Of a DNA stretch of 53,177 nt, positions 6,071 to 46,267 are shown piece by piece; the stretch's first letter is position 1; every line of letters begins with the position of its first letter. This DNA comes from Singulisphaera sp. GP187. GTDB taxonomy: Bacteria; Planctomycetota; Planctomycetia; Gemmatales; Gemmataceae. Position numbers and translations under genes: made by a program. Under the pieces are notes generated by a model. That model searched no databases and was not told the origin of the DNA. It saw only the letters and a program-made list of their open reading frames with translations. The stretch is taken from contig CAMDQN010000031.1 of NCBI GenBank assembly GCA_945905925.1, forward strand, positions 1 to 53,177, written 5' to 3'.

Positions 6071-6118
6071 TTTGTAGGGTGGGTCGAGGCGGCTTTCCGG
6101 CTCGACCCACCCTACAAA
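6071..6118. repeat. GTAG...CTAC inverted repeat (REPIN-like), possible terminator
   Basis: Two perfect 18-base arms, 6071-6088 and 6101-6118, read TTTGTAGGGTGGGTCGAG and its complement around a 12-base loop. The repeat begins with the base after the transaldolase stop codon TAA. The core runs from GTAG to CTAC, as in REP doublets. Folded in RNA it would act as a terminator for transaldolase, and for the tRNA-Cys unit coming from the other side. Confidence 0.75.
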
Positions 6119-9382: not shown

Positions 9383-9691
9383 ATGGGCGAAGCAAAGCCG
9401 AAAACGCGGACCGTGCGCATCGTGTGCCCGCCGAACGCGGACGGTGTTGGCGTGTTCTGTTTCGACATCAACGGTAAGGGGCAGTTTTATACGTTCCGCG
9501 AGATCTGGTGTGACATCGGCGGTCGCGGGTTCGCGGTCCACCGGCTCGGGCAGGGCGAGTTGTATCACGTTCGCGTCGGCAAGCCGGAGGACACGTCGTG
9601 CGAGTGTATGGGCTTCCTGCGATGGGACCGGTGCAAGCACGTCGCGGGGTTGGGGGCGCTGATCAGGAAGGGTGAGTTGAAGCAGGGGTAG
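9383..9691 (+). CDS. Small SWIM zinc-finger-like protein
   Basis: A 102-residue protein starting [17 protein letters not shown]. The C-terminal part has [18 protein letters not shown], which fits the SWIM zinc-finger pattern CxC...CxH. Such fingers bind DNA or protein. The N-terminal half is beta-rich ([20 protein letters not shown]). The last three codons, GGG TAG included, lie within an inverted-repeat element, so the present C-terminus was set by that insertion. The function is unknown. Confidence 0.75.
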
Positions 9692-9799
9692 GCGCCGCTT
9701 GCCGAGCGGCGCAGCGCGAACCTTCGCTGGACCGACACGCATGTTCGGAGAGCAACACAGCGCGTGCAGCGGTGCCGCTGGGCAAGCGGCACCTACCCC
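9685..9799. repeat. GTAG-headed inverted-repeat element carrying stop codons of both flanking genes
   Basis: Arms of 28 bases at 9685-9712 and 9772-9799 match at 25 positions. They read GGGGTAGGCGCCGCTTGCC inward from the left and GGGGTAGGTGCCGCTTGCCC from the right on the other strand. The TAG of GTAG is the stop codon of the SWIM gene (9689-9691). On the opposite strand it is the stop of the receiver gene (9795-9793). About 59 bases lie between the arms. The structure resembles a REP doublet (REPIN). Confidence 0.8.
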
Positions 9800-10161
9800 G
9801 ACAACCACGCGCCAATCTGCTCTTCCAAATCTTTCACGAACTTACTCCGCGGCATCACCTGATCGCACCCGGCTTCTCGCGCGGCGCGCAGCACGTCGGC
9901 TTCTACGTGCGAGCCGTAAGCGGTCACGCGCGGCATCGTCGCACACGCCGCTTTCAGATCGGCGAGCAGCGTTGGAAGATCGAGGCCCGGGTTGTGAACG
10001 TCAAGGATAATCCCGCCCGGCGGCGCGGACCGCACCGCGGCGAGCAACTCCGCTTGAGTGCGGACCATGCGCACGGTCAAGCCAGAGGCGCGAGCCGTAC
10101 CCGAGACGCGGCTGAAGAAGATCAGGTCGTCGCACAACATCAAACCCTGAGGCACCGTCAC
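9793..10161 (-). CDS. Degenerate response-regulator receiver domain protein
   Basis: A 122-residue stand-alone receiver-like fold. The N-terminal acidic pair is in LMLCDD. The phosphoacceptor position is IILDVHNPG (Asp about 54). The conserved Thr/Ser position is VTAYGS. The usual Lys appears replaced in QVMPRSKF, so phosphorylation-driven switching may be altered. There is no output domain. The gene starts 4 bases inside the preceding protease gene (ATGA overlap), so the two are coupled. Its stop codon is supplied by the repeat at 9685-9799. Confidence 0.7.
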   Translation of the reverse strand: MTVPQGLMLCDDLIFFSRVSGTARASGLTVRMVRTQAELLAAVRSAPPGGIILDVHNPGLDLPTLLADLKAACATMPRVTAYGSHVEADVLRAAREAGCDQVMPRSKFVKDLEEQIGAWLSG

Positions 10162-19582: not shown

Positions 19583-19637
19583 GTAAACGGTAACAGCGAA
19601 GACGGGCATGGTGCCTGTCTTCGCTGTTACCGTTTAC
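19583..19637. terminator. 26-bp near-perfect hairpin between convergent clpS and cyclophilin genes
   Basis: Arms 19583-19608 and 19612-19637 pair over 26 bases with one G-T wobble and a 3-base loop (TGG). The arms start GTAAACGGTAACAGCGAAG. They fill the gap between two convergent stop codons, so the hairpin would end transcription from both sides. Confidence 0.8.
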
Positions 19638-23392: not shown

Positions 23393-23412
23393 TCTGAACC
23401 CGTTTGCCGCGT

Positions 23413-23453
23413 GCCGGAGGCGAGCGCCACACCGGGCGACGCTCGCCTCCGGC
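23413..23453. terminator. 14-bp hairpin with flanking similarity to the 24952 element
   Basis: Arms 23413-23426 and 23440-23453 (GCCGGAGGCGAGCG and complement) pair perfectly around 13 bases between convergent stop codons. Extending the right arm on the complement gives GTAGCCGCGAGCCGGAG, close to TTTAGCCGCGACCCGGAG of the element at 24952-25123. It may act as a bidirectional terminator. Confidence 0.65.
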
Positions 23454-23473
23454 TCGCGGCTACGTGCAACCCT

Positions 23474-34974: not shown

Positions 34975-35047
34975 AGTAGTAGGCACACTCCGTGTGCCGT
35001 CGCTACTCCCAGCGCGTTGCAACGGCACACGGAGTGTGCCTACTACT
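34975..35047. repeat. Perfect 26-bp inverted repeat carrying the lpxK stop codon
   Basis: Arms 34975-35000 and 35022-35047 are perfect complements (AGTAGTAGGCACACTCCGTG inward from the left), with a 21-base loop. The lpxK stop TAG at 35045-35043 lies within the right arm's GTAG motif. It sits between lpxK and hldE, and may attenuate read-through between them. Confidence 0.8.
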
Positions 35048-45002: not shown

Positions 45003-45087
45003 CGAGCAGGAGCAGAGCCTGCCTGCATCGGTCTGGAGCAACCTCGCACGTCGCCGTTCCGATACAGGCAGGCTCTGCTCCTGCTCG
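45003..45087. repeat. Perfect 23-bp inverted repeat
   Basis: CGAGCAGGAGCAGAGCCTGC... at 45003-45025 is perfectly complementary to 45065-45087, with 39 bases between. It resembles the other intergenic palindromes here but has no GTAG head. Confidence 0.8.
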
Positions 45088-46218: not shown

Positions 46219-46229
46219 CCCGATGAATT

Positions 46230-46261
46230 GCCGCTTGCGGCTTTGCAAAGCCGCAAGCGGC
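46230..46261. terminator. 32-base perfect palindrome
   Basis: GCCGCTTGCGGCTTTG followed by its exact complement, without a loop spacer, lies between the convergent esterase and RidA stops. It can form a hairpin on either strand and is a likely bidirectional terminator. Confidence 0.75.
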
Positions 46262-46267
46262 GAAACC

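Follow-up and report, generated by a model that had tools for sequence, protein, structure and literature searches.

A GTAG-tagged REP pair at the junction of two convergent genes in a planctomycete genome

How does a single inverted repeat come to provide the stop codons of two genes that run into it from opposite sides? The question arises at positions 9688-9796 of the window (the whole stretch of 53,177 nucleotides that was analysed), where a SWIM-like gene and a receiver-like gene converge. The initial annotation had proposed that the TAGs of the repeat end both genes, an assignment that the coordinates below confirm. The account favoured here, and held to be very probable, is that a non-autonomous GTAG REPIN inserted at the convergent junction and that, among insertions swallowing a stop codon, only those in frame persist.

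Anatomy of the element and its neighbours

The features of the locus are the following:
9383..9691, + strand: SWIM-like gene, 102 aa, with a CxCx8CxH finger; its ORF ends at the TAG 9689-9691
9688..9712, + strand: left REP arm, a GTAG tag plus an 8-bp stem with a 5-nt loop (GCGCCGCT-TGCCG-AGCGGCGC)
9689..9691, + strand: TAG of the left arm, stop codon of the SWIM-like gene
9713..9771, no strand: spacer between the two REP arms
9772..9796, - strand: right REP arm, head-to-head with respect to the left arm
9793..9795, - strand (read 9795-9793): TAG of the right arm, stop codon of the receiver-like gene
9793..10161, - strand: receiver-like gene, 122 aa (Response_reg E = 9.6e-4, below Pfam's cut-off)

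The element is 109 nt long and consists of two 25-nt stem-loops, with both GTAGs unpaired and facing outward. At up to three mismatches, the arm pattern GTAGGYGCCGCTTGCCNAGCGGC matches the whole window only at 9688-9710 (+) and 9774-9796 (-), compared with 0.02 matches in shuffles. In the left arm, the stem carries a compensated C:G pair where the family usually has T:A. Folded as RNA, a stretch of 115 nt reaches -73.9 kcal/mol (z = -6.7 against shuffles), and in this fold the left and right arms also pair mutually to form one long hairpin. Near the element, Rfam yields sub-threshold matches only. The initial annotation had also taken GGGGTAGG as the head of each arm. Its GTAG portion does hold throughout the family, but the preceding Gs vary among copies: G is found at -3, -2 and -1 before the tag in 32, 29 and 46 of 83 arms, and is therefore not fixed. 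In the window copy, these Gs belong to the last glycine codon of each gene.

The CxCx8CxH finger of the 102-aa protein is what we take to be a SWIM-like motif; the protein has no match in Pfam or NCBIfam at E 0.001. Matches to it, some of them weak, occur in 26 of the 59 genomes searched (the window's own genome counted), and its near relatives at five named public loci come from Gemmata sp. and other Planctomycetota. The convergent pair formed with the receiver-like gene is kept in eight relatives (L045, L050-L056), and the element is absent from all eight. In four of them (L051, L053, L055 and L056), the matched parts of the two genes lie no more than 4 nt apart; the junctions of the other four (L045, L050, L052 and L054) are occupied by different sequence, in which perfect inverted repeats of 10 to 15 bp are found. 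The palindromes at these four junctions differ from one species to the next, as though palindromes of many kinds tended to settle at the ends of genes.

What then happened to the two protein ends? In these relatives the receiver-like protein has the same 122 aa in L045 and L052, is one residue shorter in L050, and is longer by 3 in L056, by 6 in L051, L053 and L055, and by 40 in L054. The SWIM-like protein has 99 aa in L051, L052 and L056, 98 in L050, and 113-177 in L045 and L053-L055, where the frame runs on. At the window itself the effect is thus small: the receiver-like length is unchanged in two of the eight relatives, and the SWIM-like protein exceeds those of L051, L052 and L056 by three residues. 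The initial annotation would have been contradicted by relatives with GGG TAG at both gene ends and no palindrome; none of the eight has GGG TAG at both ends.

A dispersed family at the ends of genes

The genome that holds the window (6.47 Mb in 251 contigs, 96.6% complete) contains 93 matches to the arm pattern at up to three mismatches, against 8 for the reversed pattern, and 42 of the 93 are exact to the full pattern, GTAG included. These matches make up 57 elements with 97 arms, namely 37 head-to-head pairs, 17 single arms and 3 compact palindromes. The element count takes in degenerate partners at 4-5 mismatches; two lone 5-mismatch arms (L080:2709 and L107:223) as well as L125, a duplicate of L080, were excluded before arms were counted. 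The length of the pairs is narrowly set, at 106-109 nt in 29 of 37. Over 57 distinct arms, 420 of 456 cells of the 8-bp stem are paired, compared with 110-220 when one side is slid. Support for the stem comes mostly from conservation, with two-sided changes in two of its eight pairs, each in one distinct arm, one of these being the left arm of the window. At least one arm match was found in 10 of the 59 genomes searched, again counting the own genome, whose nearest relatives share about 80% protein identity with it; the richest relatives, of the same genus, are G002 (146 matches), G010 (69 matches) and G015. The tag, the stem-loop, the pairing and the 57 elements bear out the earlier proposal of a REPIN with a GTAG-headed palindrome, and support the description of 9688-9796 as a GTAG-tagged head-to-head REP pair belonging to a multicopy, dispersed family. 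Copy number and dispersal point to a family that is, or has been, mobile.

Other palindromes occur in the window. At 6074-6115 lies a copy of a second GTAG family, GTAGGGTGGGTCGAG, with 58 matches in the own genome; its tag starts 3 nt after a TAA, and this second family is equally close to stop codons. An inverted repeat at 34975-35047, whose arms are 9 nt apart, includes a GTAG-tagged hairpin (GTAGGCACACTCCGTGTGCC), and further long hairpins are present at 45003-45087, 19583-19637, 46219-46267 and 23393-23473.

How close do the arms of the first family lie to genes? According to gene calls, made with an in-house codon-score script trained on the own genome and reused on G010 and G002, the distance from a stop-facing arm to the stop codon is at most 12 nt in 54 of 61 cases. 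With three arms beyond 300 nt omitted, the proportion is 54 of 58, where random insertion is expected to give 12% if gaps are weighted by length and 26% if all gaps count equally; in 2,000 simulations the maxima were 31% and 53%, respectively. This model takes in all non-REPIN gaps of length at least 0 between confident genes in the stretches fetched. Where both flanking genes were confident, the gaps holding the family comprise 33 tandem, 17 convergent and 2 divergent ones, against 97, 22 and 38 among the other gaps, so that divergent gaps are nearly devoid of it (2/52 versus 38/157, Fisher p = 0.0009). On the other side, 13 of 35 start-facing arms sit 10-14 nt from a start codon; many elements thus fill almost the entire gap, and may border or replace ribosome-binding regions.

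Among genes that end no farther than 45 nt from an arm, 26 of 56 have TAG as their stop codon, compared with 36 of 176 elsewhere (Fisher p = 2e-4). The stop-codon bias of the family is real and its concentration at gene ends strong. The initial annotation had suggested searching the genome for the arm and tabulating the distance of each copy to the nearest stop codon, and would have had to yield to copies scattered with no such bias; these were not seen.

The distances alone say little about frame, which was followed by scoring 40 codons that read toward the arm, retaining a frame whose codon score was better than those of the antisense frames, and locating its first stop. A gene whose end is farther than about 27 nt ahead of an arm escapes this test but is included in the gene-call distances. 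In the own genome, a coding frame enters 59 of the 97 arms. In 19 of these 59, the frame first meets a stop at the triplet of the arm itself (18 TAG and 1 TAA, the sole TAA case having a tag that reads GTAA instead of GTAG); the left arm at L074, a TAG end by gene call that falls below the score of the frame test, accounts for the 20 counted by the one method versus 19 by the other. In the remaining 40, the first stop begins 2-28 nt upstream of the tag, 27 of these falling in the range of 7 to 12 nt. In none of the 59 does it lie deeper inside the arm. Read in either of the two alternative frames, the genes at the 19 tag-stop arms would be extended by 9 to 645 codons. Of the entered arms, 19 match the consensus exactly, and at every one of these the stop falls somewhere from -11 to the tag, so that presumably young copies are also tight to stops.

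The same pattern recurs elsewhere. Among 20 regions sampled from the 69 matches of G010, the stop is at the tag in 5 of 20 entered arms and upstream in 15, and among 20 sampled from the 146 matches of G002 it is at the tag in 4 of 7 and upstream in 3. In 30 loci examined of the 58 matches to the second GTAG family in the own genome, which is unrelated in sequence to the first, the corresponding figures are 2 and 14 of 16. In these three tests, arms too near the end of a stretch for 40 codons to be scored were skipped. Genes still open when they reach an arm are thus in the stopping frame in 30 of 30 cases (own genome, G010, G002 and second family), where one third would be expected if all frames were tolerated equally; some of the insertion sites pooled in the 30 are possibly shared by descent between genomes.

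C-termini, selection and targeting

The initial annotation had held that insertion of the element set both C-termini. Six genomes were searched for orthologues of 17 further arm-stopped genes, and 80 orthologue places were tabled, one of them from G016; with the arm-bearing L236 and L250 excluded, 78 arm-less orthologues remained. Their length is the same as that of the arm-stopped protein in 24 and differs by one residue in 14, and in the rest the difference is at most 12, with one exception. Lengths run from the start of the match to the stop and are compared by plain difference, in which inner insertions count as well (L094 is such a case). The proteins at L093, L097 and L113 end at the identical residue in 14 of 15 orthologues, by means of TAG, TGA or TAA. 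That at L106 exceeds four of its five orthologues by three residues, and those at L075, L078, L086 and L121 are shorter than every orthologue, by 3 to 26. The claim accordingly stands in part: arm-less homologues mostly do end differently, but the effect is small, and C-termini have changed little, because the ends of these orthologues coincide with, or fall a few residues from, those of the arm-stopped proteins.

A plausible course of events can be set out from these observations. A REPIN, spread by a single-strand transposase of the RAYT/TnpA-REP type as its anatomy suggests, would have landed at 9688-9796, at the junction of the two convergent genes. With GTAG facing outward, a gene entering an arm in one of three frames would stop immediately at the TAG, and in the other two would gain 9 to several hundred extra residues. 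Since the stop is offered in one frame only, insertions that swallow the native stop would persist solely in the stopping frame, and the two ends of the REPIN would thereby become the stop codons of both neighbours. Copies that spare the native stop would sit a few nucleotides behind it, and the C-terminal change would range from zero to about a dozen residues. The frame bias is an observation; selection is the cause that we infer for it. The word "tolerated" in the initial annotation is in keeping with this frame filter, and "prefers" is suggested only by the tight clustering, which is inseparable from selection.

Could the transposase instead direct the element to gene ends, through a stop-like or T-rich site just behind them? 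Such site-directed insertion is possible, although we consider it rather unlikely. It would account for the share of stop-facing arms that lie no more than 12 nt from a stop (54 of 58, against the 12-26% expected), for the tightness of the exact-consensus, presumably young arms (19/19), and for the equal spacing of the second GTAG family, in which CTT or TTT often precedes the tag. It also draws on the leader just 5′ of the arms, which is T-rich and enriched in CT: the dinucleotide is found in 35 of 83 leaders of the own genome versus 17 of 83 in a control stretch, and in 38 of 64 versus 11 of 64 in G010 and G002 together. Studied TnpA-REP enzymes cleave at CT (or CA) next to the REP, as described for REPtrons (PMC8266576), and the enrichment here fits that dinucleotide. 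On the other hand, the gaps behind the random model are those free of REPINs today, in many of which other palindromes are present, and the model ignores selection against insertions into promoters and genes; the near absence of the family from divergent gaps is what selection predicts. As for a native TAG being the target, the orthologue stop is TAG at 11 of 24 unchanged ends and at 14 of 54 changed ones, a suggestive difference between non-independent counts. Active targeting of stop codons by the enzyme is possible.

The arms that themselves serve as stops behave differently in their leader. CT is present at -9..-2 in 4 of 17 of them (control 3/17), versus 13 of 30 and 18 of 36 other arms, a lack that a uniform insertion model does not predict. 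The leader of these arms is coding sequence, so that the junction may have changed once the element was in place; alternatively, these arms may have a different point of insertion. In these 17 arms, G occupies -3, a third codon position, in 82%, and C in none.

A bolder proposal, for which the odds seem poor, is that in the GTAG REPINs of Gemmata-like bacteria the transposase recognises the ends of ORFs, the tag being a portable stop by design and not by survivorship. Which enzyme would do this? The initial annotation had named RAYT, and this part found no backing: no Y1/RAYT match examined is flanked by an arm of the family. The own genome has three Y1_Tnp matches, one IS200-like (C25) and two RAYT-like (C29 and C99), the latter two scoring 41.6 and 39.8 bits against an NCBIfam cut-off of 80 and having palindromes of their own at their borders. 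No arm at up to three mismatches was found near these three, near the 30 Y1_Tnp matches of six arm-bearing relatives, or in the 20 loci examined of 26 NF047646 matches. The best of the weak arm matches near a Y1/RAYT-type gene, with 4 mismatches, is 1.4 kb away (L168). RAYT loci reach 1.5 kb on each side, several of them less because the contig ends there, and repeats interrupt draft assemblies; an arm copy near a RAYT gene may therefore have been missed. The flanking test is nonetheless able to succeed, since Y1/RAYT-like genes at L139, L142, L149, L151, L168, L171, L176, L178 and L183 have other GTAG hairpins on both sides. The association of GTAG hairpins with RAYT is thus general in the group, and the family of 9688-9796 is an orphan in the data examined. 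A gene lying between two arms on C14 was considered as a RAYT and rejected, as it is a uracil phosphoribosyltransferase.

We consider it very unlikely that 9688-9796 is immobile DNA that serves the two convergent genes as an ordinary bidirectional terminator of transcription. The strong fold of the window copy is compatible with such a role, and perfect inverted repeats of at least 10 bp do occur in 9 of 14 other convergent gaps longer than 40 nt in the sampled regions. However, independent terminators would not look alike at 57 places and share a conserved GTAG, and a scan at the element for terminators, meaning a GC-rich hairpin ahead of a run of T, found no match with a simple pattern that admits hairpin loops of 3-8 nt only. 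Terminator activity may be a side effect of the element. Least credible of all is a fail-safe role, with selection holding the arm in frame so that translation running past a native stop would end at its TAG. In G003 the orthologue at L099 terminates at its own TAA and an arm starts 8 nt downstream of the first base of that codon, whereas the own-genome gene there runs into the arm's TAG; take-over may therefore happen. The upstream stop is, however, in frame with the arm's TAG in only 10 of 40 cases, no more than the expected one third, and the idea was rejected. At L105, the G003 orthologue has an arm that also supplies its TAG.

A REPIN tolerated through the frame of its tag remains the preferred reading, and it has several consequences. 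For an element whose end is a stop codon, landing on the last codons of a gene is nearly harmless in one frame of three, which shows how a selfish repeat can persist in a tightly packed genome. The occurrence of the same bias in two unrelated GTAG families and in related genomes makes insertion preference versus survival directly testable. Annotators should be aware that C-termini here are possibly defined by a repeat. In the mRNA, moreover, the hairpin starts at or directly behind the stop codon, and it might plausibly influence termination, translation or the stability of the 3′ end.

Comparison with known REP systems

Association with RAYT genes reportedly belongs to the REPIN system of Pseudomonas fluorescens SBW25, whereas the 9688-9796 family has no linked RAYT that could be found. 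The two resemble each other in form, the SBW25 REPINs being extragenic inverted REP doublets that fold into one long hairpin, with the doublet as the replicating unit (Bertels and Rainey, 2011; PMC3116915). Neither "stop codon" nor "GTAG" occurs in the main text of that paper. Among the REPs treated in the account of REPtrons, group 3 of S. maltophilia has, like the arms here, a GTAG, a perfect 8-bp stem and a short loop, of 3 nt there and of four bases in Marinomonas, compared with the 5-nt TGCCG here (PMC8266576). In E. coli, REPs within 15 nt behind a stop are linked to ribosome stalling and lower translation, as the RepRanger article relates from an earlier study; it places about 11% of REPs (446/4,072) within that distance (PMC12306157), whereas in the present family 54 of 61 stop-facing arms lie no more than 12 nt away.

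The closest parallel is provided by the GTAG REPs of Di Nocera et al. (2013; PMC3733652), whose carriers include Planctomycetes; "Gemmata" is absent from the main text. Like the arms described here, they have an unpaired GTAG at one end and stems mostly of 6-9 bp, and their head-to-head dimers, mostly 20-100 bp apart, are found mainly in convergent and tandem gaps. Most of those between convergent genes lie within 20 bp of both 3′ ends in the genomes plotted, and their termini often supply the TAG stop of flanking genes. The abstract and sections 5 and 15 of that article contain no frame analysis and no comparison of orthologue C-termini. Stop-supplying ends of GTAG REPs having been described there already in 2013, the finding at 9688-9796 is ordinary in kind; what is added here is the all-or-none bias in reading frame and the comparison with orthologues.
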